NCBI GenBank assembly: GCA_029858285.1 | Contig: JAOUFN010000007.1 | Location: 1-64,000, forward strand | Direction of reading: 5' to 3' | Origin: Nitrospirota bacterium | GTDB taxonomy: Bacteria > Nitrospirota > JACRHL01 | Length of the DNA stretch: 64,000 nt | Shown here: positions 7,801-62,696 of the stretch, one piece after another | How positions within the stretch are numbered: position 1 is the first letter of the stretch | How the letters are laid out: the number at the start of each line of letters is the position of its first letter | Program-made: the position numbers and the translations under genes | The notes under the pieces: generated by a model | Databases searched by the model: none | The model's input: only the letters and a program-made list of their open reading frames with translations | What the model was told of the DNA's origin: nothing

Positions 7801-8821
7801 TCTGCGCGGTTCCAAGGTTCTGGATGACGTGATTGTGGCAATGGAGGGGTCGGACACCATTGAGAGCTATGCCAATATTGGTACGGAGTTGTATCGGGAG
7901 ACGCCAGTGTTCCTGGCCTCGGGTACATTGCCTTCCGACGTGCTGCGCATCGATATCAACTTCGACGGCGTGCTGGATACAGACCGCAGCCTGGAGTTTG
8001 TAGTGCTCAGCCGGGGCCTGAATGAGGTACAAGTGCTGCATCAGGATGCCGCAGGGTTGGTCACCCAGCTGGCTCCTCCGGTGCAGCTTGACGCCGGTTG
8101 CAACGCCCGCAAACTGAAGTTGACACCGGTCAACGAAGACGGTTGGGCCGACCTGCTGGTGCTGTGCAACGGGACCGGTACGGCGGCCGTCTATCTGGGC
8201 AAGAGACAAGGCCAGTTTATCCCCTGGCAATGTGCCAGTGGCTGCCGTCGACCAGCTCTGACCGTGGGTAGTGGCCCTTCCGATATCGTGGTGTCGAACT
8301 TCGACAGCCGCCAGGGCGCCGACCTTGTGGTCGCCAACCGGTTGAGTCATTCCCTGTCGGTGTTTTCATCAGTTACCACCCCTTTGCAGGGGGTGCCCGT
8401 AACGGTGGCGGATCTGGATGGTAATCCGGTGCCGGACCTGTATTACCTGGATGATTTCGGCAACATACTTCCAACCGATACAATGACCAGCAGTTCCGGT
8501 CGGTTTGTGGCCTTCAACGTGCCGCCTGGAAGTGCGTGGGTGGTGGCCAGAGATGGGGACAACGGCGATCGACGACTGGTTGTTTTGCCGGGAGAGGCCA
8601 CCTATTCAACCCTCCTGACCATTGCCGGATCGCCGCCGCCGATCGTTCTGGAGGGCACGGTCAGTGATGCGGTGGGAGCGGCGCAGGAGGGTATCGAACT
8701 GCAGTTCTCCGGGACTGGCATCTCCGTCATCAGCGCCAACGATGTGTCGGCCAACGGAGGATACAGCGTGACTCTCCCCACGAATTTCGGCGAAACCGTG
8801 GTAAGGTTGCGCCAGCCATGA
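4844..8821 (+). CDS. Giant surface lipoprotein with repeated FNVPPG modules and FG-GAP/VCBS-like repeats
   Basis: This protein of about 1325 residues has a lipoprotein signal ending in LALMTTGCG, so Cys is the expected lipidation site. Four modules resembling carboxypeptidase-regulatory/SdrD-like beta sandwiches each end in FNVPPG or FNLPPG followed by a self-reporting strand; the motifs lie at nt 5321-5338, 5954-5971, 6713-6730 and 8513-8530. Between the third and fourth copies (nt ~7300-8350) sit FG-GAP/VCBS-like repeats with calcium-loop patterns such as DVNADGVGD, DMDGDGLADD and DINFDGVLD. The ATG at 4844 lies inside the 3' end of the barrel gene; a TTG at 4811 is in frame. I infer an outer-surface adhesin or scaffold, possibly the acceptor of the neighbouring glycosyltransferases. 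No enzymatic domain is recognised. Confidence 0.7.
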   Translation: MWNSLTNFSHILRAGRSLWAAALCACLALMTTGCGAAPFPGSPAASGVRDVPFVDTYNFDFPTGSANHGSKDGRDTSGNLRVFSAADLANLLSAANVSTELSGGVISGYTLFGTAVERVILQARDFDGNVLPDVFYNGLGGVPDFGAEEGTTSQGTFTIFNVPPGETFLIASHGGIGMGRVSAFARGISVKAVDVVPLVVAQIGVTGAIADWTTGLNVFPVTITGMGLQSDSRFSDDQGHLDVTPLVGYRFVLPAGSEFLIQQQAAGYLPTYQMVNTYLTDLNGAVDLTRDFFMVSQSTVTRWLAQAGINRIPGTGMIAGRVMSGDSSQPHGRLAFYTFDGTPVGEYRMGLSVLANPGTPSAEDLVYFVAFNLPPGPVFTRASAYHVSSGFEVMMAGGSVTEVLADSVTLEDIKLAGSQSADTPGGTTEVTLRGTITLSDLATVVKDVVVDVGGYPGGPGRYDGPVRSRTVFTGDEYSVLAQQRVSPTDPYDLTQSNLPIKGDYVVRVANLPGQSHYVDTYQYIDTRTAQPLPDGSAELVWNLQVFSRTEVEAMAAVAGVQLDPGRGVLVGRVIDVLSGNTAQNIRLTVYNQDGIPVGDMRYLDLVGLPQRLDSTSLQGEFMVFNVPPGLVLIQVTSANDTGSLTTRVYPGGVTAVGVLPVGDAPEEITSISGTLFDLKGKAPVAGAEVMYRGEPSRDPSVRSGYLTGLTDTLGNFSAKLRIFGDFIVSATPGSGYFRTHNLGVQTGLREQTRENLWALSRQHVQQMEQQLAAAGKSVVQDAARGIVVGEVQARSWLNRPGDSWTIQSGVLGPTAIASSLMNGDYIPDMLVANGDSDDVSVFFGNQEGTFDFAGSYPVGLSPIDLLGMDVNADGVGDILVLDQGALSGDVRVLMGTIRGSFREERSRRLFTGNAPVAMSLGDMDGDGLADDLVVLNGGGTPSLSVYFRNDERRFVEAPYSPTPIAGNGPSALQVLDIHPVVSDAGRLRGSKVLDDVIVAMEGSDTIESYANIGTELYRETPVFLASGTLPSDVLRIDINFDGVLDTDRSLEFVVLSRGLNEVQVLHQDAAGLVTQLAPPVQLDAGCNARKLKLTPVNEDGWADLLVLCNGTGTAAVYLGKRQGQFIPWQCASGCRRPALTVGSGPSDIVVSNFDSRQGADLVVANRLSHSLSVFSSVTTPLQGVPVTVADLDGNPVPDLYYLDDFGNILPTDTMTSSSGRFVAFNVPPGSAWVVARDGDNGDRRLVVLPGEATYSTLLTIAGSPPPIVLEGTVSDAVGAAQEGIELQFSGTGISVISANDVSANGGYSVTLPTNFGETVVRLRQP

Positions 8822-8927
8822 TCGTGGTGGCATCTTACTTCGGGAAGGTAGGCCGGGCGGCCCCAGACCCCGTTGACAATTCGGTGTGTGCCGGTATGTG
8901 GCTGTGTGAAAAATCCCCGCGTGGCTG

Positions 8928-9929: not shown

Positions 9930-10897
9930 AGGCGGCTCCGTTAGCGCGGTCTTACGAAAGTGGTGCCCTGCCGCGCCTGTCCTACGTCATTCCCCTGCTC
10001 AACGAGAAGGCCTCCCTGGAAGAGCTGTACCGGCGCATTGCCACCGTTACCGAGCGTGCGGGGTGCCAGTTCGAAGTGCTGTTTGTGGACGACGGCAGCC
10101 GCGATGGATCGTTTGAGGTGGTGGCGGAACTGGGTCGCCGCGACCCACGGGTCCGTGGTGTCCGGTTTGGCCGCAACCGGGGCAAATCCGCAGCCCTCGA
10201 CGCCGGTTTTCGTGCCGCCCTAGGGGATGTGATCATTACCATGGACGCCGACCTTCAGGACGACCCGGAGGAAGTCCCCCGCATGCTGGAACTGTTGGCC
10301 AGCCACAATCTTGATGTGGTTTCCGGCTGGAAGCGGTCTCGCCGCGACCCGTTTTCCCGGCGGCTGCTGTCGCGCATTTTCAACGGTGTGACTGCGCGCT
10401 TCTCGGGCCTGCATCTGCATGACTTCAATTGTGGCTTCAAGGCCTATCGTCGCCAGGTCATCGACCACACCCGGGTGTACGGGGAATTGCACCGTTTTTT
10501 GCCGGTCCTGGCCCACTGGAACGGCTTTCGGGTGGGAGAGATGGAAGTGCGCCACCACCCGCGCCGATTTGGCTCTTCGCGCTATGGCGCCTCGCGCATC
10601 GTGAAGGGGTTGTTCGACTTCATTACTGTGATGTTTCTGGTCAAGTTCAGCCGTCGGCCACTACACCTGTTCGGCTCCATCGGTATGCTGTGCCTTCTGG
10701 CAGGTGGAGGCATCAGCCTGTTCTTCGTCGCCCAGTGGCTGTCGGGGGTTCCGATGCGGCTGCGACCGGTCATGGTGGGTGGATGGGTACTGGTGCTGGT
10801 GGGTATCCAGTTCTTCTCGATTGGCCTCCTGGGGGAGATGCTGGCCCGCAGCCAGCACGAGAGCGAAGAAGCTCCCGTACAGGACCGGGTGGGATAA
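9926..10897 (+). CDS. Family-2 glycosyltransferase, GtrB/ArnC-like polyprenyl-phosphate sugar synthase
   Basis: 323 residues starting at the ATG inside the previous stop (ATGA overlap). Motifs are YVIPLLNEKASLEEL, FVDDGSRDGS and MDADLQDDPEE, the last typical of ArnC/GtrB/YfdH-type undecaprenyl-phosphate glycosyltransferases. RFGSSRYGASRI precedes two C-terminal transmembrane helices (residues ~245-300), which is also the GtrB layout. It likely charges polyprenyl phosphate with a sugar at the inner membrane. Together with the preceding GT2 it gives the locus two potential lipid-donor synthases for the two TMTC-like proteins. Confidence 0.85.
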   Translation: MKAAPLARSYESGALPRLSYVIPLLNEKASLEELYRRIATVTERAGCQFEVLFVDDGSRDGSFEVVAELGRRDPRVRGVRFGRNRGKSAALDAGFRAALGDVIITMDADLQDDPEEVPRMLELLASHNLDVVSGWKRSRRDPFSRRLLSRIFNGVTARFSGLHLHDFNCGFKAYRRQVIDHTRVYGELHRFLPVLAHWNGFRVGEMEVRHHPRRFGSSRYGASRIVKGLFDFITVMFLVKFSRRPLHLFGSIGMLCLLAGGGISLFFVAQWLSGVPMRLRPVMVGGWVLVLVGIQFFSIGLLGEMLARSQHESEEAPVQDRVG

Positions 10898-46750: not shown

Positions 46751-46937
46751 GCCCGGGTCACAGCCGTGGTTTGTGTTGCGGAGTCGGCGGTGCGTGCCGC
46801 GGTTCACAGGGAAGTGGACGCTGGGGTGGCCAGCGCCCGGGCCGTAAAAAGGGTCAGCACATATGACAGATGTCATGGTTCGCCCGCCGGATGTTGCTAC
46901 GATTCCCGCTGTTCGTTCCGTGTGGGGTGTGTCGTCA

Positions 46938-47627
46938 ATGGTTTGCATTCGTCCCCAATTGAGTTTGCGCGTGCTGCTGGCAGGTCTGGCGGTGTGGTTG
47001 TGCGCGACTGCGGCTCCCGGCTGGGCGGCGTCGCCAGCAGATCCGGTGCGTCAGCGCTTTGCCGGTGATTTTCAGGCGGCCATGGACGGTTACGCGCGTC
47101 TCGGTGCTGAGGCCGGGGCCAATGCGGCCAAGGGGTTGAAGCCACTGGACGCCACTTGGGACGGCCGCATGAAGGTGGTGGACCGGTTGCTGGTGCAGCA
47201 CGAATCAGTGTTCTTTCCAATGATGACCCGCCCCTGGAGTCGCGAGGCGGCGGTATTTTCCAACTTGCAGGGTGCCCGCATGTGGCTGTGGTCCATTCAT
47301 GACGGACTGCGGGACGGGGCGGCCGGAGTGAAAACCCTGGATGTGGTGGACGGTCGCGTGCGTGATGAGTTGCTGGCCAACTTCACGGCCTACCTCGAGA
47401 AGGCGCACTCGCTGATGGCGGGGGGCGAATTCAAGGGCTCGTATTTCGCCGACACCCACACTCCGGTGCTGGCCGATTACTGCGCCTACCCTGAAGACGG
47501 CAAGCGTGTGCGACCCGATTTCAAGGATCAGAATATTTTCAAGCAGTCTCCTGCGGGTCAGTCGGCTCGGAATGGTGGCGGTGGCGTTCAAATGCGGCCG
47601 GTAGTGGCTTCCACGGGAGGGTTCTGA
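46938..47627 (+). CDS. Exported protein of unknown function
   Basis: 229 residues from the ATG at 46938, chosen because it puts a signal peptide at the N-terminus (LRVLLAGLAVWLCATAAPGWAA); an ATG at 46863 with an AAGGG upstream would add 25 residues. The mature part is largely helical with no motif I recognise. It overlaps the next gene by one base (TGATG) and leads a three-gene set just before the oxidase cluster. Periplasmic location is inferred. Confidence 0.6.
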   Translation: MVCIRPQLSLRVLLAGLAVWLCATAAPGWAASPADPVRQRFAGDFQAAMDGYARLGAEAGANAAKGLKPLDATWDGRMKVVDRLLVQHESVFFPMMTRPWSREAAVFSNLQGARMWLWSIHDGLRDGAAGVKTLDVVDGRVRDELLANFTAYLEKAHSLMAGGEFKGSYFADTHTPVLADYCAYPEDGKRVRPDFKDQNIFKQSPAGQSARNGGGGVQMRPVVASTGGF

Positions 47628-48019: not shown

Positions 48020-48643
48020 TTGGCGGACACACGCAAAAAGGTGGTCGTCACGCTGGCGGTGTTGTTGACTTCCGCCGCGTTGGTGAGTTTAATACTCGCC
48101 ATTTCGCGGTATGTCGGGTTTCTTTCGCACCCGGAAGCTTGGCGGTACGCGCTGGTCTATCGGGTGGAACCCGTCGGGCAGGTTGCCGCGGGACTCAGGG
48201 TGCGGGCCGTGTCCCTCGGGGACGGAGCGGAAGGTGTGTCGTCCTTGCTGGCGAGCGCCTTCTGGATCTTTGAGGTGACTGTCGAGAACGTATCCGGCGG
48301 GCCGGTCGATGTGGATTTCGATCGTGTGACCCTCGGTTTTGGCGGGCGGGAGGAACGTGCCCTGACCGCCGAAGCGGCCCTCGGATTGTTCAACGAGCGG
48401 ATGACTGGTGCTTTCGCCTCGGCCTCGGCCCGGCGGGAGTACCAACGGGTTCTGGATCTGCTCCAGAACCGGGTACTCGGGGTGACCAGGGTGTTTCCGG
48501 GGTATTCCCGGGCCTCACTGGTGTTGTTTCAGCCCCATCCGGATCCCCCTGCTGCGGCAGAGCTGAAGCTGTACGGGATCCGGGCCGCAGGAGGTGATCC
48601 GGCGCCGCCGGTTGCCTTCCATCTCAGCCGGGAGACCGGGTAA
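48020..48643 (+). CDS. Membrane-anchored protein of unknown function
   Basis: 207 residues from a TTG, with GGAGAGG about 14 nt upstream. One N-terminal anchor helix (~8-29), then a beta-rich extracytoplasmic domain (WIFEVTVENVSGGPVDVDF) reminiscent of Ig-like or FixG/CtaG-like folds, but I cannot assign it. It lies 18 bp after the preceding gene and 132 bp before the oxidase small subunits. Confidence 0.55.
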   Translation: MADTRKKVVVTLAVLLTSAALVSLILAISRYVGFLSHPEAWRYALVYRVEPVGQVAAGLRVRAVSLGDGAEGVSSLLASAFWIFEVTVENVSGGPVDVDFDRVTLGFGGREERALTAEAALGLFNERMTGAFASASARREYQRVLDLLQNRVLGVTRVFPGYSRASLVLFQPHPDPPAAAELKLYGIRAAGGDPAPPVAFHLSRETG

Positions 48644-48775: not shown

Positions 48776-49024
48776 ATGCAAGGGAAGTTCCTGATTTGGG
48801 GTTTGGTCATCGCCGCAGCAGTGGTGGTGGAGGTGTTCTTCGCCAACCAGCCCAAAGTGTTTGGTGAGGACATCGGCGGGTATGCGTGGTACGGCCCGTA
48901 CGGTCCGTTCATGTACATCCTGATCACCTACGTTGCGGTGTGGGTGACGGGTGGTGTGTTGTGGTACAAGGACGCCATCGACGACATCGACGTCGACCGG
49001 AAGGATCCTTACCTGGACAACTAG
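48776..49024 (+). CDS. Two-helix small membrane protein, oxidase cluster
   Basis: 82 residues with transmembrane helices at ~6-23 and ~45-63, joined by a loop rich in Gly/Tyr (GGYAWYGPYGPF), and an acidic C-terminus. Not recognised; not CcoQ, which has one helix. Preceded by GGGAGG. First of four unfamiliar small membrane proteins around ccoN/ccoO. Confidence 0.65.
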   Translation: MQGKFLIWGLVIAAAVVVEVFFANQPKVFGEDIGGYAWYGPYGPFMYILITYVAVWVTGGVLWYKDAIDDIDVDRKDPYLDN

Positions 49025-49068
49025 TAACGGCGAGTGTCGTTCGAACGACAAGTAAAGGAGGGATCCTG

Positions 49069-49284
49069 ATGAGCAAATCGATGTGGACGGCCGTAATGAC
49101 GGTCGTGATGGTGCATGCGGGTGACATTGCGTTCGCCATGCAGAAGCCGGAGGCCGATCCGGCGCACCACGGGCCGGGGTGGTTGTCGGGTCTGGCGTCG
49201 TTGTCGGGCTTTATTCTTGCCTGGGCCAGTGTGGTGTTGATCTACATGATGGTCAGCGGCAAGGCCGGCAAGTACAAGGCGTAG
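49069..49284 (+). CDS. Small membrane protein, oxidase cluster
   Basis: 71 residues from the ATG at 49069, with a strong AAAGGAGGG upstream. An N-terminal hydrophobic segment (~5-24), a His-containing loop (ADPAHHGPGW) and a second helix (~41-62). Not recognised. Tight spacing and strong ribosome-binding site suggest high expression with the oxidase. Confidence 0.65.
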   Translation: MSKSMWTAVMTVVMVHAGDIAFAMQKPEADPAHHGPGWLSGLASLSGFILAWASVVLIYMMVSGKAGKYKA

Positions 49285-49316
49285 CACTGACTGTTGTACT
49301 TGGGAGGAGTGGCGTT

Positions 49317-49535
49317 ATGGAAAAAATGTTGACCTGGGTGTTGAACGGGATCTTTCTCGGCTTCGGTCTGGGGACCGTGATCGGCTCTGCCGCCAATCTT
49401 GGCGCCTGGGCCGGTCGTCATGATGTGTGGACGGGAGACTACCACTACATGTTTGCCTGGACCTTCGCAGTCGGCGCGCTGGTGGGCATCATCATGTTCA
49501 TGCTGATGAAGCAGCAGACCCCGGACAAGGGTTGA
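49317..49535 (+). CDS. Two-helix small membrane protein, oxidase cluster
   Basis: 72 residues from the ATG at 49317, with GGGAGGAG upstream. Two helices (~6-28 and ~44-64) joined by a loop with Trp/His/Tyr (GRHDVWTGDYHY). Not recognised. Lies 52 bp before ccoN and is probably a structural subunit or assembly factor of the oxidase. Confidence 0.65.
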   Translation: MEKMLTWVLNGIFLGFGLGTVIGSAANLGAWAGRHDVWTGDYHYMFAWTFAVGALVGIIMFMLMKQQTPDKG

Positions 49536-49587
49536 AATTTAGACTGACGGTGTCTGTGGATCCCGTCACCAAGAGGAGTTGTTTGGT

Positions 49588-51009
49588 ATGAGTACTGCAA
49601 CCGCTGCCTACGATGGCATCCGGCCTGGTACCGCCGCAAAACACGCGTTTTTCAGCGCTGTGGTGTGGCTGTGCATCGGGGCCTCGTTCGGGTTCTTTAC
49701 CAGCTTGCGTATCGCCTGGCCTGACTTGCTGAACGGCAAGGAAGTCATGGGTCCGCTGGCTTCGGCCTTTGCATTCGGGCGCGTGCGTCCGATGCACATT
49801 ACCCTGGTGATCTTTGGCTGGATCTCCATGGCGTTCGTCGCGGCCATGTATTACATGACCCCGGCGCTTTGCAACTGCCGGCTGTGGAGCGAGAAGCTCG
49901 GCCTGTGGAACATCTGGCTCTGGAACGTCGGCCTGGTGGTCGCCGCCATCTCCCTGCTTGTCGGCGCCAACTCGGGCCGCGAGTACCAGGAGCTGATCTG
50001 GCCGGTGGACATCTATGTGCTGGTGTTCATCCTCGGCTTCGCTGCGGTCAACACCTTCAACACGGTGTTGCAGCGTCGCACCCAGGGTATGTACATCACC
50101 ATCTGGTTCTTCCTGGGCGCCCTGGTGATGATCTGGATGACCTACTTCATCGGCGCGATCCCCGATCTGTTCCCGGTGACGGGTCTGAACGAGGCCTACA
50201 TGGTGTGGTGGCACGCGCACAACGTGCTCGGCCTGTGGATCACCCCGGTGTCCGCCGCGATCGCGTACTACGTGATCCCGAAGGTGACCGGTAACGTGCT
50301 CTACAGCCACAAGGTGGGCCACCTGCACTTCTGGACCATCGTGGCCTTCTACTCCACCCCCGGCGCGCACCACCTGATGGGTGCCCCGCTGCCGGAGTGG
50401 ATGAAGTCCTTCGCGTCGGTTTCCGGCGTGATGATCCTGATTCCGGCGCTGGCGTTCATCACCAACATGGTGCTGACCGTGCAGGGCAAGTGGCAGATGT
50501 TCTCGGATAACGTCTCCATCCAGTTTGCGCTCACCGGTACCCTGATGGCGGTGCCCCTGAATTTCCAGGGCGCCTTCCAGCAGACCCGCGCGATCAACTG
50601 GTACATCCACGGCACCCACTGGATCGTGGCGCACGCCCACTTTGCGCTGCTTGGCTTCTCGACCTTCATCGAGATTGGCGCGACCTACTACGCCATCGCC
50701 AAGCTGTTCCAGCGCAAGATCTACAGCCAGTCGTTGGCCACCACCCATTACTGGCTGACCACGGTCGGCTTCATCGGGTTCTGGACCACGTTGACCCTGG
50801 CTGGTCTGATCCAGGCTTCGGGTAAGGTGTACAACACCACGTTCATCGACGTGGTGTATGCCACCCACCCGTACATGGTCGGTCGTTCCCTGTTCGGTCT
50901 GACCATCGTGCTGGGCCAGTGGATCTTCCTCTACAACCTCTACAAAACTGCCACCGCGGGTGAGCCTGTGACGGAGAAGAATCCTCCGGCCACTGTCTAC
51001 TACACCTAG
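49588..51009 (+). CDS. ccoN: cbb3-type cytochrome c oxidase catalytic subunit (CcoN-like)
   Basis: 473 residues, about 12 transmembrane helices. Low-spin heme ligand His70 (RVRPMHITLV) and His351, CuB ligands His211 (WWHAHNVLG), His261 and His262, high-spin heme ligand His349 (VAHAH), and Tyr255 (FYSTPGAHH) where cbb3 enzymes have their cross-linked tyrosine. The residue four after His211 is not Glu, which argues against a NorB-type NO reductase. Q327 (NFQGAF) replaces a Glu found in typical CcoN (FEGP). Reduces oxygen to water with proton pumping. Followed by a CcoO-like gene, but no CcoP or CcoQ. Confidence 0.9.
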   Translation: MSTATAAYDGIRPGTAAKHAFFSAVVWLCIGASFGFFTSLRIAWPDLLNGKEVMGPLASAFAFGRVRPMHITLVIFGWISMAFVAAMYYMTPALCNCRLWSEKLGLWNIWLWNVGLVVAAISLLVGANSGREYQELIWPVDIYVLVFILGFAAVNTFNTVLQRRTQGMYITIWFFLGALVMIWMTYFIGAIPDLFPVTGLNEAYMVWWHAHNVLGLWITPVSAAIAYYVIPKVTGNVLYSHKVGHLHFWTIVAFYSTPGAHHLMGAPLPEWMKSFASVSGVMILIPALAFITNMVLTVQGKWQMFSDNVSIQFALTGTLMAVPLNFQGAFQQTRAINWYIHGTHWIVAHAHFALLGFSTFIEIGATYYAIAKLFQRKIYSQSLATTHYWLTTVGFIGFWTTLTLAGLIQASGKVYNTTFIDVVYATHPYMVGRSLFGLTIVLGQWIFLYNLYKTATAGEPVTEKNPPATVYYT

Positions 51010-51039
51010 GCACGGAACCGGGAAAGGAGAAACTTACCC

Positions 51040-51603
51040 ATGGGTGGTTATAAAGAGTACAAAATCGGGGTGATCATGTTCCTCGCCGTCTTCGGGATGG
51101 CGGTGTTCATGACCATCGGTATCGGAGGTGTGTACCTCGGATCCGTGCCAGCGACACAGCTGGCACTGGAGAAGCAGGTGCACTACGGCTCTTCGGCGTG
51201 GTCCATTCGGGACCCGCTGATGAAGGGCTGGAACCAGCCGAAGATCCAGAAGGCCGACGGCACGATGGTGTCCGATCCGGTCGGCGTCGGGAAGAAGATC
51301 TTCATCCGCGAGGGGTGCTGGCATTGCCACACCCTGCTGCCGGAGCAGACTTCCGACTGGGAATACTTCGGTGCGCCGCCTCTGGCGGGCGACTTCGTGG
51401 GCGAATCGCCCACGGTGATCGGTTCCGACCGCAAGGCTCCGGACCTGATGCATGTGGGCAGCCGTATGCCGTCGATGGCTTGGCACCTGCAGCACCACAA
51501 GGACCCGCGTTCGGTGCAGGCCAAGTCCATCATGCAGTCCTTCGACTTCCTTGAGACAAGTGAGTTGAAGGCGCTGGCGACTTACATGGTCAGCCTGAAG
51601 TAA
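51040..51603 (+). CDS. ccoO: CcoO-like membrane-anchored monoheme cytochrome c
   Basis: 187 residues: one N-terminal helix (~9-33) and a periplasmic c-type domain with heme motif CWHCH (93-97) in IREGCWHCHTLLPEQ, matching the CcoO context (YIREGC..CHSQMIRP). GSDRKAPDLMHVG corresponds to CcoO GPDLARVG. The axial-Met region is altered (SIMQSF for NMPAY). Likely passes electrons to the CcoN heme b; with no CcoP it may take them directly from soluble cytochromes. Confidence 0.8.
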   Translation: MGGYKEYKIGVIMFLAVFGMAVFMTIGIGGVYLGSVPATQLALEKQVHYGSSAWSIRDPLMKGWNQPKIQKADGTMVSDPVGVGKKIFIREGCWHCHTLLPEQTSDWEYFGAPPLAGDFVGESPTVIGSDRKAPDLMHVGSRMPSMAWHLQHHKDPRSVQAKSIMQSFDFLETSELKALATYMVSLK

Positions 51604-51676
51604 CAATTGCGCGCTTCCCGGGTGGGGCCTGTCCCCACCCGGGGGTCGCGCCAACGGTTGTAAGGGAGATATTCAC

Positions 51677-52111
51677 ATGGCAGGTCGCAAGCTGACCTTT
51701 GAAGAGCTCAAATGGGAGCTCTATGACGGCATCCGCGAGGGTGGCCGCCCCTGGCCGATCTTTATGGCCGCATTGATCGCCATGGTGATCTTCACTTCGG
51801 TGTTGGTCACCTTCCCGCTGTGGGGTGAGCGCAAGGACTACGACTTCCTCACGCCGGCGTTCAACTTCGATCAGCGTCCGTTCTTCCTCGAGCCGAGCAT
51901 CGTCGGCGAGATGAAGTACGTGGGCGTGGAGAAGGTGCCACCGTACTCCGGTTGCGTCACCGAAACTCCGGATCCGAACTGCACCCAGGCACCGACCTCC
52001 AACCAGGCCCCCTGGTTTGACGGTGGTTTCGTGCTCACCGTGGTGTGGGTGCTGGTGGTGGTGATCTCGTTGTACTTCGTGGCGGCCAAGTGCCCCACGT
52101 ACTACGAATAG
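51677..52111 (+). CDS. Two-helix membrane protein at the end of the oxidase cluster
   Basis: 144 residues with helices at ~26-48 and ~117-137. The ~65-residue loop between them is probably periplasmic and contains two cysteines (SGCVTETPDPNC) that could form a disulfide. Not recognised as CcoP, CcoQ, CcoH or CcoS. Strong AAGGGAG upstream; ends before a strong terminator, so it belongs to the oxidase transcript. Confidence 0.65.
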   Translation: MAGRKLTFEELKWELYDGIREGGRPWPIFMAALIAMVIFTSVLVTFPLWGERKDYDFLTPAFNFDQRPFFLEPSIVGEMKYVGVEKVPPYSGCVTETPDPNCTQAPTSNQAPWFDGGFVLTVVWVLVVVISLYFVAAKCPTYYE

Positions 52112-52217: not shown

Positions 52218-52253
52218 AAGAGTGGGAGGCCCTCGCCTCCCACTCTTTTTTTT
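52218..52253 (+). terminator. Strong rho-independent terminator after the oxidase cluster
   Basis: A 13-bp perfect stem (52218-52230 with 52235-52247), CCTC loop and an eight-T run overlapping the stem end. The strongest terminator in the window; it isolates the oxidase transcript from pgi. Confidence 0.93.
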
Positions 52254-54503: not shown

Positions 54504-54714
54504 ATGGTCAGTGTGAAACACACAGGTAATGCCATCATCCCCGTCAGCAAACAGTCCAAGATGCATCAGGCGTTCGATTTCCCCAACTCCGGGGACAAAA
54601 TACTTGATTGCCGAGAATGATCTCGAGGTCGGGTGGGATTTTGAGGCGGTAACCAGTTGCAATATCAGGGCAGTATTTTCTGCCCTGAAAAGCGAATGGA
54701 AGGGGTCCTCCTAA
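54504..54714 (+). pseudogene. Small frameshifted ORF of unknown function
   Basis: ATG at 54504 with a perfect AAGGA 7 nt upstream reads MVSVKHTGNAIIPVSKQSK... and stops at 54620. After NSGDK the reading continues sensibly in the +1 frame (YLIAENDLEVGWDFEAVTSC) to a TAA at 54712-54714. Removing one A from the run AAAA near 54597-54601 would restore one frame of about 69 residues. Base composition is more AT-rich than the surroundings, suggesting transferred DNA, a decayed gene or a sequencing error. Its end overlaps the convergent giant gene's stop. Confidence 0.4.
54666..54687. other. Perfect hairpin at the 3' end of the giant gene
   Basis: CAGGGCAG (54666-54673) pairs with CTGCCCTG (54680-54687) around a 6-nt loop, 24 bp past the giant gene's stop. 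It could mark the end of that minus-strand transcript, but no T run follows on that strand. Confidence 0.4.
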
Positions 54715-57700
54715 CCTTCCGGGTCGCCCCGCAACGCCGCAATCAACGCGGGCACGGTTACAAACAAATCCCCCGCAATCGGATGCACGGTGACGCCGGG
54801 GCGCTTCATGCTCATCAGGGGGGCGTCCGGGTCGCGGTTGAAGGCGAACACCTGGGCGCGGGCGCCGATGTAGTCCACGTGCTGGGGCGCGCCGGAGATG
54901 CCCAGCGCAAACAGAATGCGCGGATTCACTCGCAGGCCGGTCTGGCCGATCTGATGATCCAGCCCCAGCAACCCCAACCCCTGCGTGATCTTGCGCGAGG
55001 CCCCCAGGTGCGGCGACAGGCCCAGTTCCCGCAGCGCCGCCACCAGCTCTTCGGCCATTTGCATGCCCGCCGGGGAGCCCGCGCCGTAGCCGATGTCCAC
55101 GATCACTTCGGCCTGGGAAAGGGTTTCCGCCGGCGGCGTGAAGGCGGCGTCGAAGTCGGTCTTTTTGTTCAGCCCGGCGTCGAAGGCCGACAGGGTGAAG
55201 CCCGAGGCCACCCCGCTCAGGGGGAAGTCCGCCCCTTCCGCCACCGTGAACAGCAGGGGCCGCGCCCCGTCCACCCGGAGCGACTGGGTCACGCGCCCCC
55301 CGTAGGCGGAACGCAGCAGGCTGATTCCCCCTTCGGTGACAAGGCCGCTGGCGTCGCAGAACAGGTCTGCCGGACGCTCTCCGCAGGCCGTCGCGGCCAG
55401 CGCCGCAGCCCACTCACGGGGCGCCACGGCGCACGCCGGGTGGCCGTTGGAATTTTTTCCGCCGTTTTTTTGCGGTCCGGTGACGGTTTCGGCCAGCTTG
55501 CGGGCGCCCGCGAAGGACAGGGCGGTGTGGCGGGTGACCACGCCGTGGGCCGACGCCATCCCCGCATCCCGCGCCAGCCCCGCCAGCGCGGCCAGGTCGT
55601 CCTCGGTGCCGGTCATCAGGGCGCGGGCAGGCACGTTCATGGCGGCCGCCAGACGCGCGGCGGCCCCAAAGGCGGCGGTGGCGGCCTTTTTCTGGTGCCA
55701 TTCGGCCAGTGCCCACACCGCACCCCCCTCGGGCAGGGGGGCCGCATCGTGGAGGCCGGTGGTCACCGGCTTTGCCACCACCTGACGCACCGCGTCCGCC
55801 AGATGCCGCAGCACCCGTGCCGCCGCCTGCGCGTCGCTGGCCACCTGCTCCCCCGCAGCGCTGGCGGGGGGGGCGACAAAGCGCAGCGCCGGGGCGGCAA
55901 TCGCCATGTCCGGGCGTTCCAGATCGGTGTGCAGGGCGGCCACGTGTCCGCCGATGTTGGGGCGGATGCGCGCGCCATTGCCGCGCAGGGTCAGCACGCT
56001 GCCGGAGCCGGGCCTGTCGCCGCAGGACGTGGCCAACTGACCGTCGGCGACCGCCAGCCCGTCCGCCGTGTGGAAGGCAAAACCCAGTGAGGCGGCCACG
56101 GCGGCGCCGATGGGGGATTCTGCCTCTGGCCCGCCGTCACCGCACAGAATCCATCCGCCCAGGTCGTTTTTGCCCACGGCGGCCAGCGCCGCGCCCCACT
56201 CCGTGGGGGTGGCGTGGATGCCCACGGGCAGCAGCACGGCGCGGTCGGCCCCGGCGGCCAGCGCGTGGCGCAGCAGGTTTTCGCCCTGACTGCCGCCGCA
56301 GGAGATCACCTGCACCTTCAACCGGCCTCCGGAACGGGCGCGCAGTTCCAGCGCCGTGGCCAGCGCGGCCTCGTCCGCCGGGTGCATGCGCCACACGCGC
56401 TCGGCCAGGGTGCCGTCGGCGTTCAGGCGCGGGCGCGGGGCGGTGACCGCCGCCGGGCGCACCAGACAGGTGAGGGTGGCCTCTGCCTCCAGGGCGCCGG
56501 GGGTGGGGGACAGGGCGTGATGCTCCTGCATGATGGCGTCCGCCGCCACCGACTCCACCGGATAGTGGCTGGTCAGCGCCGCGTCGCGGCCCTGCTCGTA
56601 GCGGCCCGCGATAAATTCCAGCCGCGACAGGCACTGGGCGGCGGCGCGCTCGCCCACGGCGATCATGCGCGTGGCATAGTCGCCCTGAGTGGCGCGCTGG
56701 GCATCCAGCCAGCGCATGCGGTAGACCACCGTATCCAGCAGATACAGCTCTCCGGCCATTTCCGACAGGGGGAAGAAGGCGGGCTGCATGGCGGCGTCGG
56801 CCCACACGGTGTCGCCCAGCCGGTCCACGGCTTCCTTGACGTAGCGGCGCAGGCGTTCCTTGTAGTGGGCCATGCGCACGCCAAAGACGTCGGCCTCGGG
56901 GATCGGCACCGGCTCCCAGTCGGGGGCCATGGCGCACAGTTCGCGCAGGATCAGGAAGCGCTGCACCTCGTTGGTGCCCTCGTAAATGTTGAGGATGCGC
57001 GCGTCGCGGCGGGCCTTTTCCAGCAGGTTGTCGCGGGTTTGCCCGTGGGGACCCCAGAGCAGTTCCATCTGGTCCAGCCCCTCGTGGAACATTTCGGAGC
57101 AGGCGTACTTGGCCACCGCGCTTTCCATGCGCACGGAACGGGTGGAGTGGTTGTCGAACAGGCCGATCAGGTGGTAGCACAGGGATTCGGTGGCAAAGAT
57201 GCGCGCCGCGCAGTCGGCCAGCACGCGCTCCTTGTCCGGACCTTCCGGCGCGCCGGCGATGCTTTCCACCAGCATGCGCCGACCCATCACCACGCTGGCC
57301 ACCGCCAGGCCGCAGCGGCCGACGTTGAGGGTTTCCAGCGCGTTGACCTGGCCGTGCCCCTCGTAGCCGATGACGCACTCGCGGGGGACGCGCACGCGGT
57401 CGATGGCGATTTCGTTGGTGGGGGAGCCCTGCTGCCCCATCTTGTCCTCGTCGCGGCCCACCACCAGCCCTTCGGCGTGGCGGTCCACCAGGAGGCCGGT
57501 AATGCCCTCGTCGGTCTTGACGTACATGGACATCTGGGTGCAGACGCGGCCGTTGGTGATCCACATCTTGGCGCCGGTGAGTTCGTAGAACTCGTACACG
57601 TTGCCCTCGCGCACCTGGGCGATGTCGTGGAACGGCACCTCGGCGTCGCCGTGCACCAGGGTGCGGGTGCCCTGGTCGGTGCGGTAGTCGTACCCGCTGG

Positions 57701-60700
57701 TGGACACCCGCGCCAGGGTGCCGTCTTCCAGGCGACAGGTCATGCCGTCGGCATCGAAGCCGATGCGGTCGGCATCCAGCAGGAAGCGCTCCTGACCGTC
57801 GATCTCGAAGCGCCAGCGGCCGTCCGGCAGGGGGGTTACCGGCACCGAGTGCAGGCGGGCGGTGGTGGTCACGCCGCCGGAGTCGGAACCGGCGGTGGGC
57901 TCGGTGAGGGCGAAGGCGGCCACGCCGCCGTGGCCCATGGTGCGCAGGTACAGGTGATTGGCGCGCTCGCGGCGCGGCAGTTCCAGCACGGCGCGGTGAA
58001 TGGTGTCCGGCAGCGCCGCCAGCAGGGGTTGCGCCTCCCGCAGGCCGTCGGCGAAGGCGCCAAAGTCGCGCCGCTTGCCCGCCAGCGCGGCGGTGTAGAA
58101 GGTTTTGAGGAAATTCTGCGCCAGATACTTGGTGACCTTGGTCTTGCGGATCACCGCGTCCACCTGCTCCACCAGCCGCGTGAAGTCGCGCTCCAGGCGG
58201 CCCGGATCGGGGCGGTCGAGGCTGGCGACCACGGCGTCCAGCCCCTTCTTGATGTCGCCGAGGCGCTGCGGTTCCTTGTCGAAGGCCGTCAGCTCCGCCG
58301 CCACCAGCGGGATTTCCTTTTCCATCCCCAGCAACAGCGGGGTGACGCCGATGCTGGTGCTGGCCATGATCAGCAACGACAGGGAGGCGTCGCCGTGGCG
58401 CATGGCGCCCGAGACCAGCAGGTAATAACCGATCTTGCGCCAGCCCAGACCGTCCAGCTTCTTCGGCACCACGGTGGCGAAAAAGCCGTTCTGGACAAAC
58501 CCCTCCAGCATGTCCGGCGGGATGCTGTGGACGCGCTCGATGTAGTGTTCATAGTAGCCGCCGTCGTCCGGGGCGGTATGGCAGCGGTCGAGGAACCATT
58601 GGTAGCAGTAGGCCCAGCGTTCCCGCAGGGCGGGGTCGTGCAACTGGATTTCCGGGATGAAGCGCGGCTTGCCGCCGTCCTCGCCGCGCAGGAAATCGCC
58701 CGAAGCGTACGGATCCTCGGTGTGGATGATCTCTTCGTAGGTGAGCGGAATGACCTGGGCGGGCAGGTCGGGAAATTCGGGAAAGTGCGCCACCGTGTGG
58801 CTGGCATCCGCGTTGGCGGTGGCCTCGCGGGCGGTGTGGACGAGGCTGTCCAGCTCCCCCTGCAACACCTCCAGCAGGGCGGCGTCCGCCTCCACCGGCA
58901 GGCCCTGGGTCAGGGCCTCGCCGCAGGCGGACAGCAGGTGGAACAGGCCCACGGTCAGCACCGTGGCCTCCCGCGCGGAAGCCCCGCTCAGGGGCAATTG
59001 ATCGACCTCGGCCACGGCGCGCTGCCAGCGCTGCACGGCCTCGGCAAACGGCCCCTCGGCCAGCCGCGAAAAGGCGTCGGCGGCCTCCGGAATCAGCCGT
59101 GAGGCCAGCGGCAGGGTGGTGTCGCCACGCCATTCGGCAGCCACCCGGCCCACCGCGCCGAAGCCCGGAGACAGGAAGTGGAACGCCGCGCTGTCGCGGT
59201 AGAAACGGGCCAGCAGGTCGTCTTCGGAATAGCCGGTGCCGCCGAAGGCCTGCCCGGCGTCGTAGGACATGCGGCCGTTTTTGGGGCAAAAAGCCAGTGC
59301 GGCCAGGGCGGCGGCCAGGTCCGGCAGGGTGGTGGTGCGTTCCACCACCGCCGCCAGCAGCTTGCGCCACGCCAGGGTGCGCGCCAGAAGGGCCTTGACC
59401 GCGCCGAACTTGGCCACGCTGTCGTGCCCCTGGGAGTCCTTGAGCTGCCCCGGAAACTGGATGCGTCCGGCGGCCTGCTCCACGGTGCGGCGCGCCAGAT
59501 AATCGCCCGCCCCCAGTGCCACGGCGGCGTAGCCGTAGGACAGGAAGCGCAGCACGCCGTCGTGCAGGGGCACGCTGGCGGCGGCCTCCAGGGTGACGTC
59601 CAGTTGCACGCTCTCGAAGCCCGCCGGATGCAGGCCCCCGGAGCGCACCGTGCGGCGCGCAACGCCTTGGTGGCCGGTGGCAAGGGTGTGGGCGAAGCCC
59701 TGGTGGACGATGACCAGATCCCCCCCCAGGGCGGCGGGGACCATCACCAGCGTGCCACGAATGTGGGTGGTCTGGCTGCCCTTGGCGCCCTTCTTCGTCA
59801 CCTTCAGGCCGTCGCCGGACACCAGAATGCCGTCGGCGTTGCCGGTGGCGGCGCTGGCGCCGATCCGTGCCAGCGCCAGCACCGCCACGCCGGGGTGGAT
59901 GGCCCCCCAGGCGCGCAGGTGGGCGATGGTTTCGGCGGGCAACGGATGGTCGGCGTCCGGCACCGGCAGGGCGGCCAGATATTTGGCCAGTTCCTTCGCG
60001 CGGGCGCCCTCGATGCCGTGGCGCTCCCACTCCTTGATCAGGGTGTCGGGGTAGCGTTCGCGCAAGGCCGTTTCCACCGCACCGGGGGCGAACGGATCGG
60101 CCAGCGGGATGAGGGCCACGGCCCCCCCCGCGGGCGGCGCCAGTCCCAGCACGTGGTTCAGTCCGGCCAGAGCCGTCTCGCGGGTGCGGCGGGCAGAGGC
60201 CACCGCCTCGAATAGGTCGCCGTTGCGCAGGTGGGCGGCCAGCACCTCCACCTCGTCGCCGAGGCCGGGTGCGATGGCCACGAAAGGGGAGTGGGCCAGC
60301 CCCGCCCGCAGCGGCAGCAGCAGGGCGGCGGAGCCGGTCAGTTCCGCGTGCAGCACCCGCAGCCGCTGCACGGCGGCCTCGCCGGTGCGGCGCGGCCAGG
60401 CCAGACGGCTGCTGTCGGCCACGGCGGGAATGTTGGCCACCGCGACTTCAAACTGCACCAGGGACTGCAAGGTCAGTTCCGCCAGTTGCCCCAGTTCCGC
60501 CAGATGGGCGGTGTGCCGGGGGTCGTTGCGCACCGCTTCGGGCAGGGGACGCAGGGTGTCGGCGCGGGGCGGCGTGGGGGCCTTCTGGACCTCCGGCGCC
60601 GGAATGTCCATGGCCGCCGTCTCGGGGCGGTAGATCAGGCAGTGGTCGGTGTGGCGTCCCCAGCGCACCCCCGCCGCGGACGACTGCCAGCACGATTCGC

Positions 60701-62696
60701 ACTTGATGCAGTTCTGCCAGTTCACCGTCACCAGCCCGTGGCCGCTGAGGGCCGGTTCAAAGGCGTAAACTCCGGCGGGGCAGACCGACCAGTAGGGCGA
60801 TTCCGCCATCCGCGCGTGGTCCGGCAGGGCCTCGGGCCACAGCACGCGGATGTGCGCCGTGGAACCCTCTTCATAGGTGTTGGTGGCAAGGCGCGCGGCC
60901 ATGCCCAGCGCCGCCGGGGCCGGGGTCAGCTCGCGCAGTTCGCGCAGGCGGCGGCCGTCGGCGGTCACCCGCTCGGCCAGCATGCGCGCGGCGCCGACCT
61001 TGAACACGTAATAGCGCAGGGCGTCCACCACCACGCTGGCCACGGCGCAGGCGCTGGCAATGGCCCCGGCCAGCAGCACCCGCAGCAAATCCAGCAGGTG
61101 CACGCCGGAGACCAGTTCGCTCAGGGCGGTGCGCATGCGGTTGGCCAGCGGCGTCTCGTCGTTGCGATACACGGCGGCCAGCGCCCGGGACAGGGGCGGC
61201 AGCATGCGCCCCAGGGGGCCGCGCACCAGCCACGGCAGGTCGCGCAGTTCCTTGCGCTGGCCGCCGCTGCGGATTTCCAGCCGGATGCCGTCCGGTTTGC
61301 GGCGCGGGGTCAGGGAGTTGGTCACCCAGCGCCCCAGCGTGCGCAGGGAGGCGGCCTTGCCGATGGCGTCGCCAATACGCAGGGCGGTGGCGGTTTTCAG
61401 GCCGTCCCCCAGCAGGCGCTGGATCATTTTTGGCGCGTAATAGGTGCGCATGAAGCGCCCCAGCAGCCACCAGCGGCGCCACGCCGGTTCGCTGGCGGTG
61501 AGGTAGCGCACCTTGCCGCACACCAGGTCCACCGAGGCGCCGAACAGTTCGCGGCTGTGCTCCATGTGCCGGGGCCACGCCGACAGGGCGTCCGCGTCCT
61601 TCCAGTAGCGGGACTGGCGCAACCGGTCCAGGTACAGGGCGGTGAGGTTGGCGGCGGAGAACGGCGAGCCGACCCGTGCCAGATCGCGGTACGCCTGGGC
61701 GAAATACAGGCCGGTGGCGGAGGCGGGGCCGGTGAAGTTGGGGCACGGGATGTCGATGCCCAGACCGCAGGCGGAACCGCCCACGGCCAGGCCGTCCTCC
61801 ACCAGGAGGGGTGACTGGGTGAGGCCGCCGGTGCGGATCAATTTGGTGCCGAAGGCCGACAGTTCGGCGCCTTCGAGGTATTCGGCGATACCCGGCATGC
61901 GCGTGACGAAGGCCAGCAGGTCGTCGTGGTTGCCCTTGAAGTTGCGCGCCAGATTGGTCAGCGGCACCACATAGCCCACCGACAGGGTGTCGCGGTTGGT
62001 ATAGAGGAACGCCCCCATGTTCAGGTGCAGGGAACGCCCCGCCAGGGATGGGTTGCGCAGCAGGATTTCGTAGGCCGCGCCGTCGCCGGGATTCAGGTTG
62101 AAGCGGCGCTCGATGTCGGCGGCGGGAAGGCGGAACACGGCCTTGACGCCCTGCATGAAGTCGGGGCTCTGCACCCGCTCCAGCCCCTCGTAGCGCACCA
62201 GATGCGAGGCGTCGCCCTCGGCCAGGAACACCACGTCGGCATAGGCCGGACCGCGGCTGGTGTGAACCCCCACCACGCGTCCGGAGCGGCGGATCAGCGA
62301 GGTGACGGTGGTGCCGGGCAGATAGGTGGCGCCCATGGCCCCCGCCCGCTGGGCCCACCACGGATCGAAGGCCGGACGCAGCACGGTGTAGCAGTTGCGA
62401 AAGGTGTCCGCATCCTGATGCGAGGCGCCGAACAGGGTTTCGCCGTCGGTGACCGCCAGTCCCCTGCGCACCACCGGGCGCTCGAAGGGCGCGCCGGACA
62501 TGGCGTCCGCTCCGAAAATGTCCGGATGCAGCAGATTTTCCGCGAAGTAGACGCAGCCGGACCAGTTTTCGGCCCCGGCGAACGCACCGGCCTCGAGCAG
62601 CAGAACCGAGGCGCCGGTGCGAGCCACGCCGGCGGCGGCGGTTACCCCGGCGGGTCCGGCACCCACCACAATGACGTCAAAATGAACCCGTTGCAT
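54711..62696 (-). CDS. Fused ETF:quinone oxidoreductase - acyl-CoA dehydrogenase (x2) - ETF beta - ETF alpha megaprotein
   Basis: One 2661-residue reading frame. Residues 1-~440: FixC/ETF-QO flavoprotein (FAD motif VGAGPAG, 11-17). ~534-558: hydrophobic segment. 639-669: 4Fe-4S ferredoxin domain, Cys 639, 663, 666 and 669, with spacing like animal ETF-QO. ~735-1300: degenerate acyl-CoA dehydrogenase keeping FGGTGYSEDD...YRDS but with Ser1176 where the catalytic Glu should be. ~1316-2060: intact acyl-CoA dehydrogenase with ALTEPTAGSDSGG, GAKMWITNG and catalytic Glu1906 in IYEGTNEVQR. ~2073-2270: ETF beta (HPADEAALATALEL, VISCGGSQGENLLR). ~2325-2655: ETF alpha (LGASRK, HQIGQTG, ALGISGAPQH). Predicted to oxidise an acyl-CoA and carry electrons through ETF to quinone on one chain at the membrane. 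GAGGGAG precedes the ATG. Acyl specificity unknown. Confidence 0.9.
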   Translation of the reverse strand: MQRVHFDVIVVGAGPAGVTAAAGVARTGASVLLLEAGAFAGAENWSGCVYFAENLLHPDIFGADAMSGAPFERPVVRRGLAVTDGETLFGASHQDADTFRNCYTVLRPAFDPWWAQRAGAMGATYLPGTTVTSLIRRSGRVVGVHTSRGPAYADVVFLAEGDASHLVRYEGLERVQSPDFMQGVKAVFRLPAADIERRFNLNPGDGAAYEILLRNPSLAGRSLHLNMGAFLYTNRDTLSVGYVVPLTNLARNFKGNHDDLLAFVTRMPGIAEYLEGAELSAFGTKLIRTGGLTQSPLLVEDGLAVGGSACGLGIDIPCPNFTGPASATGLYFAQAYRDLARVGSPFSAANLTALYLDRLRQSRYWKDADALSAWPRHMEHSRELFGASVDLVCGKVRYLTASEPAWRRWWLLGRFMRTYYAPKMIQRLLGDGLKTATALRIGDAIGKAASLRTLGRWVTNSLTPRRKPDGIRLEIRSGGQRKELRDLPWLVRGPLGRMLPPLSRALAAVYRNDETPLANRMRTALSELVSGVHLLDLLRVLLAGAIASACAVASVVVDALRYYVFKVGAARMLAERVTADGRRLRELRELTPAPAALGMAARLATNTYEEGSTAHIRVLWPEALPDHARMAESPYWSVCPAGVYAFEPALSGHGLVTVNWQNCIKCESCWQSSAAGVRWGRHTDHCLIYRPETAAMDIPAPEVQKAPTPPRADTLRPLPEAVRNDPRHTAHLAELGQLAELTLQSLVQFEVAVANIPAVADSSRLAWPRRTGEAAVQRLRVLHAELTGSAALLLPLRAGLAHSPFVAIAPGLGDEVEVLAAHLRNGDLFEAVASARRTRETALAGLNHVLGLAPPAGGAVALIPLADPFAPGAVETALRERYPDTLIKEWERHGIEGARAKELAKYLAALPVPDADHPLPAETIAHLRAWGAIHPGVAVLALARIGASAATGNADGILVSGDGLKVTKKGAKGSQTTHIRGTLVMVPAALGGDLVIVHQGFAHTLATGHQGVARRTVRSGGLHPAGFESVQLDVTLEAAASVPLHDGVLRFLSYGYAAVALGAGDYLARRTVEQAAGRIQFPGQLKDSQGHDSVAKFGAVKALLARTLAWRKLLAAVVERTTTLPDLAAALAALAFCPKNGRMSYDAGQAFGGTGYSEDDLLARFYRDSAAFHFLSPGFGAVGRVAAEWRGDTTLPLASRLIPEAADAFSRLAEGPFAEAVQRWQRAVAEVDQLPLSGASAREATVLTVGLFHLLSACGEALTQGLPVEADAALLEVLQGELDSLVHTAREATANADASHTVAHFPEFPDLPAQVIPLTYEEIIHTEDPYASGDFLRGEDGGKPRFIPEIQLHDPALRERWAYCYQWFLDRCHTAPDDGGYYEHYIERVHSIPPDMLEGFVQNGFFATVVPKKLDGLGWRKIGYYLLVSGAMRHGDASLSLLIMASTSIGVTPLLLGMEKEIPLVAAELTAFDKEPQRLGDIKKGLDAVVASLDRPDPGRLERDFTRLVEQVDAVIRKTKVTKYLAQNFLKTFYTAALAGKRRDFGAFADGLREAQPLLAALPDTIHRAVLELPRRERANHLYLRTMGHGGVAAFALTEPTAGSDSGGVTTTARLHSVPVTPLPDGRWRFEIDGQERFLLDADRIGFDADGMTCRLEDGTLARVSTSGYDYRTDQGTRTLVHGDAEVPFHDIAQVREGNVYEFYELTGAKMWITNGRVCTQMSMYVKTDEGITGLLVDRHAEGLVVGRDEDKMGQQGSPTNEIAIDRVRVPRECVIGYEGHGQVNALETLNVGRCGLAVASVVMGRRMLVESIAGAPEGPDKERVLADCAARIFATESLCYHLIGLFDNHSTRSVRMESAVAKYACSEMFHEGLDQMELLWGPHGQTRDNLLEKARRDARILNIYEGTNEVQRFLILRELCAMAPDWEPVPIPEADVFGVRMAHYKERLRRYVKEAVDRLGDTVWADAAMQPAFFPLSEMAGELYLLDTVVYRMRWLDAQRATQGDYATRMIAVGERAAAQCLSRLEFIAGRYEQGRDAALTSHYPVESVAADAIMQEHHALSPTPGALEAEATLTCLVRPAAVTAPRPRLNADGTLAERVWRMHPADEAALATALELRARSGGRLKVQVISCGGSQGENLLRHALAAGADRAVLLPVGIHATPTEWGAALAAVGKNDLGGWILCGDGGPEAESPIGAAVAASLGFAFHTADGLAVADGQLATSCGDRPGSGSVLTLRGNGARIRPNIGGHVAALHTDLERPDMAIAAPALRFVAPPASAAGEQVASDAQAAARVLRHLADAVRQVVAKPVTTGLHDAAPLPEGGAVWALAEWHQKKAATAAFGAAARLAAAMNVPARALMTGTEDDLAALAGLARDAGMASAHGVVTRHTALSFAGARKLAETVTGPQKNGGKNSNGHPACAVAPREWAAALAATACGERPADLFCDASGLVTEGGISLLRSAYGGRVTQSLRVDGARPLLFTVAEGADFPLSGVASGFTLSAFDAGLNKKTDFDAAFTPPAETLSQAEVIVDIGYGAGSPAGMQMAEELVAALRELGLSPHLGASRKITQGLGLLGLDHQIGQTGLRVNPRILFALGISGAPQHVDYIGARAQVFAFNRDPDAPLMSMKRPGVTVHPIAGDLFVTVPALIAALRGDPEG

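Follow-up and report, generated by a model that had tools for sequence, protein, structure and literature searches.

Papers on iron-oxidising bacteria cite proximal and distal subtrees of cbb3 oxidases that differ in subunit composition (PMC8788666, PMC7029218, PMC10734462). The oxidase of Leptospirillum is labelled cbb3 in papers on this genus, the available portions of which give no account of its subunits. Ferrovum JA12 was described as being without subunit III, and co-localised cytochromes c were proposed as its replacement (PMC4725956); in Ca. Tenderia, a highly expressed oxidase exists alongside the canonical ccoNOPQ (PMC5371394).

The gene block around ccoN

We analysed a stretch of 64,000 nucleotides (hereafter, the window) from a Nitrospirota genome whose assembly comprises 2.56 Mb in 57 contigs and is 99.5% complete. 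A preliminary description had placed a cbb3-like oxidase cluster at positions 48776-52111. Upon re-checking, the genes with their sizes and coordinates, the ribosome-binding sites (purine-rich, upstream of s1, s2, s3, ccoN, ccoO and p144) and a strong terminator were all present, but the conserved block was found to reach upstream to 46863, taking in three further genes, u1-u3. The features are as follows:

46863..47627, + strand: u1, 254 aa, predicted exported protein, family-restricted, same position in related loci L012 and L018
47627..48001, + strand: u2, 124 aa, two transmembrane (TM) segments, second CcoP-anchor-like (p144-like) protein
48020..48643, + strand: u3, membrane-anchored periplasmic protein, start codon uncertain, 52-70% identity and same position in L012, L013 and L018
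48776..49024, + strand: s1, 82 aa, two TM segments, 72-79% identity and same position in three other genera
49069..49284, + strand: s2, 71 aa, N-terminal signal-like segment and one TM helix, 50-65% identity and same position in three other genera
49317..49535, + strand: s3, 72 aa, two TM segments, adjoins ccoN, 78% identity in L012
49588..51009, + strand: ccoN-like gene, 473 aa, catalytic subunit (heme b, heme b3, CuB), PF00115 at 267 bits, in a clade of its own
51040..51603, + strand: ccoO-like gene, 187 aa, membrane-anchored monoheme cytochrome c, PF02433, CxxCH at residue 93
51677..52111, + strand: p144, 144 aa, heme-free, two TM segments, likely relative of the CcoP N-terminal anchor (FixP_N)
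52218..52253, + strand: intrinsic terminator ending the cluster, 13 stem pairs (52218-52247) followed by a T run

Conservation of gene order in related genomes had been proposed as a check, and it was found: the order s1-s2-s3-ccoN-ccoO-p144 is preserved in each of the three other genera in the family, the small proteins being 50-85% identical, and u1-u2-u3 also lie upstream in related genera wherever the contigs extend far enough. Since the block is syntenic in three other genera, we take the small open reading frames to be genuine genes; this conservation rules out chance frames. No Pfam match or known domain was found in u1, with which the conserved block probably begins. All four small proteins had been called unfamiliar; none of s1, s2 and s3 is named by a profile (for s1, no Pfam match exceeded the cut-off), but p144 can be recognised as a relative of the CcoP N-terminal anchor. 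While s1 and s2 are known only from this Nitrospirota family, the conservation of s3, p144 and u2 reaches across phyla. Aligned counterparts of s3 adjoin ccoN in Gammaproteobacteria, lie near ccoO in Leptospirillum and share an invariant GxGxV.

Elsewhere in the window, a single 2661-aa frame on the - strand (54711-62696) combines FAD-dependent oxidoreductase and acyl-CoA dehydrogenase domains with an ETF alpha FAD-binding domain, and appears to be a giant fusion of the electron-transfer pathway for acyl-CoA oxidation. A long frame matching this protein (1764 aa) adjoins pgi in L018.

CcoN and CcoO

The ccoN product is the only full-length PF00115 protein (heme-copper oxidase subunit I) of the genome. 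Aligned with P. stutzeri CcoN (PDB 3mk7_A), it keeps every histidine ligand of heme b, heme b3 and CuB, as well as the cross-link Tyr251 of helix VII. Relative to 3mk7, three changes run through its clade: Glu323 to Gln, Tyr317 to Ala/Gly and Tyr338 to Gly. The first corresponds to Gln327 of the window protein, singled out earlier for occupying a position that is normally Glu (Glu323 in canonical CcoN); the substitution is real, but it is a property of the clade and no local oddity. The scores of both CcoN (254.8 bits against a cut-off of 583) and CcoO (77.2 against 200.65) fall far below the cut-offs of the NCBIfam equivalog models for ccoN and ccoO (TIGR00780/00781).

A tree of 33 CcoN sequences, suggested as a check in the preliminary description, groups the window protein and those of its family with Leptospirillum and with two gammaproteobacterial sets (support 100/99), separate from the group of canonical CcoN (100/100). 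Searches of plasmids for relatives returned best matches only 28-35% identical and outside the window's CcoN clade. One plasmid, Paraburkholderia pBN2 (L058, 5728-12590), carries a CcoN group with Gln at the Glu323 position and Phe at that of Tyr338, which branches between canonical cbb3 and the window clade in the midpoint-rooted tree; its neighbours are CcoO, cytochrome c, a P-type ATPase and a molybdopterin oxidoreductase. On a Ruegeria pomeroyi megaplasmid (L060, 9096-11000), near ccoNOQP, proteins of 157 and 476 aa annotated as oxidase subunit I are followed by an SCO gene; the 476-aa protein, the second gene of L060, aligns very poorly with CcoN and was left out of the tree as unrelated.

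CcoO matches FixO (PF02433) over the cut-off at 73.6 bits and has one CxxCH and one TM segment. Its axial-Met region had been called altered. As can be seen from the motif, SIMQSF as against canonical SVMPSY, Pro is indeed replaced by Gln, but the axial Met itself is present.

CcoP-like anchors and the second locus

The cluster contains no ccoP or ccoQ domain, as originally reported, and no FixQ match was obtained among its small proteins. Over the TIGR00782 cut-off, no ccoP was detected in seven Nitrospirota genomes (the source genome and six relatives); as a control, each of six tested Gammaproteobacteria carries one or two, elsewhere in its genome. The profile search thus refutes a ccoP elsewhere in the source genome, as far as its completeness of 99.5% allows. 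A complete ccoNOQP operon outside the cluster, which would have spoken against the preliminary account, was likewise sought in this genome and none was found.

No CxxCH occurs in p144, and hence the two heme c sites of CcoP/FixP are missing. The profile of its family aligns with the CcoP N-terminal anchor at an hhalign probability of 74% (E=2.9e-5), compared with 0.7% for s3 as a negative control. Its PDB matches are CcoP chains only (E=0.027 and 0.047); the Leptospirillum homologue matches FixP_N at E=5.3e-4, while p144 as a single sequence does so weakly (E=0.085), and the AlphaFold model of p144 is of low quality (pLDDT 54.6). A feature of the CcoP/FixP anchor, the segment GIxE...P.P followed by a TM helix, is present in p144; within the p144-like family, Asp is missing from it in some Gammaproteobacteria and Glu in L181. 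Proton entry in cbb3 oxidases has been linked to a Glu of the CcoP anchor. Each line of evidence from the p144 comparisons is modest; combined with the position after ccoO, they make a relationship of p144 to the CcoP N-terminal anchor likely. Since p144 resembles this anchor in heme-free form, CcoP would be reduced here, not simply missing. The p144 profile also matches u2 (E=1.7e-4), homologues of which occur near ccoG in Gammaproteobacteria (E to 8e-9) and in Leptospirillum (E about 4e-6).

Assembly genes, reported as absent, are indeed lacking up to the terminator, but they have not been lost: accessory genes, including ccoS-like and ccoG-like ones, lie on another contig, C24. This second locus encodes a ccoS-like protein, a monoheme cytochrome c (c180), a protein with three to four TM segments, tN1, a SUMF-domain protein (PF03781, E=8.5e-54), tN2, a thioredoxin-like lipoprotein, a 91-aa TM protein and a ccoG-like product. 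Most of these accessory genes accompany the window-type oxidase in Leptospirillum and Gammaproteobacteria. The positions of three of them are:

L054 (G000:C24) 8203-8916 and 10024-10527: short CcoN tN1 and tN2, one-third-size COX1-family proteins
L054 8942-9985 and L122 12116-13237: membrane-anchored SUMF/FGE-sulfatase-domain protein

In Nitrospirota the SUMF gene is flanked by the two short CcoN genes, and in Gammaproteobacteria it lies inside the oxidase cluster; in a literature search conducted outside subscription journals, we found no report of a SUMF/formylglycine protein in a cbb3 cluster.

An HxH corresponding to the heme ligands of helix X is kept in 77/77 distinct short CcoN proteins, 12 further sequences being fragments of full CcoN. 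The short-CcoN profile matches the last third of CcoN best (E=2e-20), then the middle (1.1e-10) and the first (5e-9); the first and last thirds of CcoN align with each other at only 1.8e-4. Among PDB entries, the short-CcoN AlphaFold model (pLDDT 71.8) matches cbb3 CcoN best, with weak E-values (0.08 and above), and a plasmid search returned only weak matches of 28-29%, located, where annotated, inside CcoN genes. Most simply, the short proteins would be truncated CcoN paralogues. A bolder and rather doubtful idea is that tN1 and tN2 bind heme as genuine subunits, each a four-helix unit standing free of the threefold repeat that makes up heme-copper oxidases, in which case one respiratory complex would hold three COX1-family polypeptides and heme-free CcoP-like anchors.

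The gene set is kept in the Nitrospirota family, in Leptospirillum and in Gammaproteobacteria, as two blocks in the first, as a cluster without ccoN in the second and as one operon or region in the third. In a Leptospirillum-family genome (G020), a single run comprises s3-like, a 66-aa protein, ccoO, p144-like, a 68-aa protein, monoheme c, ccoS-like, a TM protein, tN1, SUMF, tN2, a small TM protein and ccoG, while ccoN lies about 100 kb from it. In at least 15 gammaproteobacterial loci the order is nearly constant: monoheme c, tN2, thioredoxin-like, s3-like, ccoN, ccoO, p144-like, ccoS-like, monoheme c, SUMF, ccoG, tN1. Among 369 Gammaproteobacteria, window-type CcoN was found in 32 genomes, with short CcoN in 32/32 and a p144-like protein in 31/32 of these; overall, 36 genomes have short CcoN (four matches inside frames of ~480 aa being excluded) and 34 the p144-like protein. 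For 396 Nitrospirota, the overlap was 19/22. The hypergeometric values for co-occurrence are tiny, computed regardless of shared ancestry.

Interpretation and comparison with known oxidases

The separate CcoN clade, the lack of CcoP in the genome and the small proteins, conserved in order and, for s3, p144 and u2, across phyla, support the proposal that this is a divergent oxidase with new subunits. Parts of it had to be revised: p144 is better seen as a relative of the CcoP anchor, and a distal cbb3 group is already in the literature (PMC8788666), as are its differing composition and, for Ferrovum, the missing subunit III. What is new is the conserved extra subunits; in a literature search conducted mostly outside subscription journals, nothing was found that describes s3, the heme-free CcoP-like protein or the two short CcoN proteins.

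In our estimate, the whole is best explained, with a probability of about 0.72, by a terminal oxidase that belongs to a separate branch of cbb3-like enzymes, with CcoP reduced to a heme-free anchor and with s1-s3 and short CcoN as accessory proteins. O2 would be reduced to water at the heme b3/CuB site of CcoN, and electrons would pass from a periplasmic cytochrome c to the monoheme CcoO, their entry probably assisted by the separately encoded membrane-anchored monoheme cytochrome of C24. The two-heme CcoP would have been pared to p144, with u2 as a second copy; p144 probably holds CcoN in place and provides the Gly-Ile-x-Glu segment that the CcoP anchor carries. A role as accessory subunits or assembly factors is proposed for s1-s3 and the pair of one-third-size CcoN paralogues. 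We infer all functions, among them the electron route, the role in proton uptake and O2 as the substrate from sequence, and the membership of the small proteins in the complex from gene order.

The main rival, which we hold to be unlikely, is a minimal oxidase for which CcoN and CcoO suffice, with s1-s3, p144 and short CcoN as assembly factors that leave the finished enzyme, comparable with CcoH, CcoS or CcoQ. The wealth of assembly-type genes at the second locus (ccoS-like, thioredoxin-like lipoprotein, ccoG) fits such an enzyme, and so does the Ferrovum paper, in which only subunits I and II are described (PMC4725956); however, in the majority of lineages p144 and s3 directly adjoin ccoO and ccoN, and the similarity of p144 is to a structural part of CcoP, not to an assembly factor. 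A nitric oxide reductase or another non-oxidase member of the heme-copper superfamily, which includes such reductases, is very improbable: the Glu323 position is altered and there is a weak similarity to NorB, but the best matches are to CcoN, and the oxidase Tyr, present in every aligned clade member, rules out identification as NorB. An ordinary cbb3 oxidase with ccoP and ccoQ elsewhere in the genome can be dismissed almost entirely, since, although assembly genes do sit elsewhere (C24), no ccoP exceeded the cut-off in any of the seven Nitrospirota genomes, against 6/6 Gammaproteobacteria in which one was found, and CcoN belongs to a different clade.

The branch of cbb3-like oxidases favoured here matters beyond the window, as its gene set is shared by about 9% of the sampled Gammaproteobacteria and by Leptospirillum, an iron oxidiser of major importance in bioleaching for which the label cbb3 is in routine use. 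Should the extra proteins prove to be subunits, this would be a widespread respiratory enzyme with a composition and electron entry unlike those of the solved cbb3 structures. A CcoP cut down to a heme-free anchor separates the role of the anchor from that of the hemes, and through the one-third-size CcoN proteins the long-standing proposal that repetition of a four-helix unit gave rise to heme-copper oxidases becomes accessible to structural test.

With canonical cbb3 (ccoNOQP, PDB 3mk7) the window system shares the CcoN ligands and Tyr, the monoheme CcoO, a CcoP-anchor-like segment and ccoG and ccoS-like genes. Unlike it, the window system is without diheme CcoP and, in the cluster, without recognisable CcoQ, has Gln, Ala/Gly and Gly at positions 323, 317 and 338, adds small membrane proteins and short CcoN paralogues, and stays below the TIGR00780/00781 cut-offs. 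The distal cbb3 group (Ducluzeau et al. 2008, cited by PMC8788666, PMC7029218 and PMC10734462), said to have a separate ccoN, another subunit composition and occurrence in iron oxidisers, is similar by its description, and so is the Ferrovum JA12 cluster with its two recognised subunits (PMC4725956). The Leptospirillum cbb3 oxidase has a CcoN of the same clade (57-60% identity), CcoO, p144-like and s3-like proteins, the short CcoN pair and ccoG; it differs in that ccoN stands alone, the remaining genes forming one cluster.
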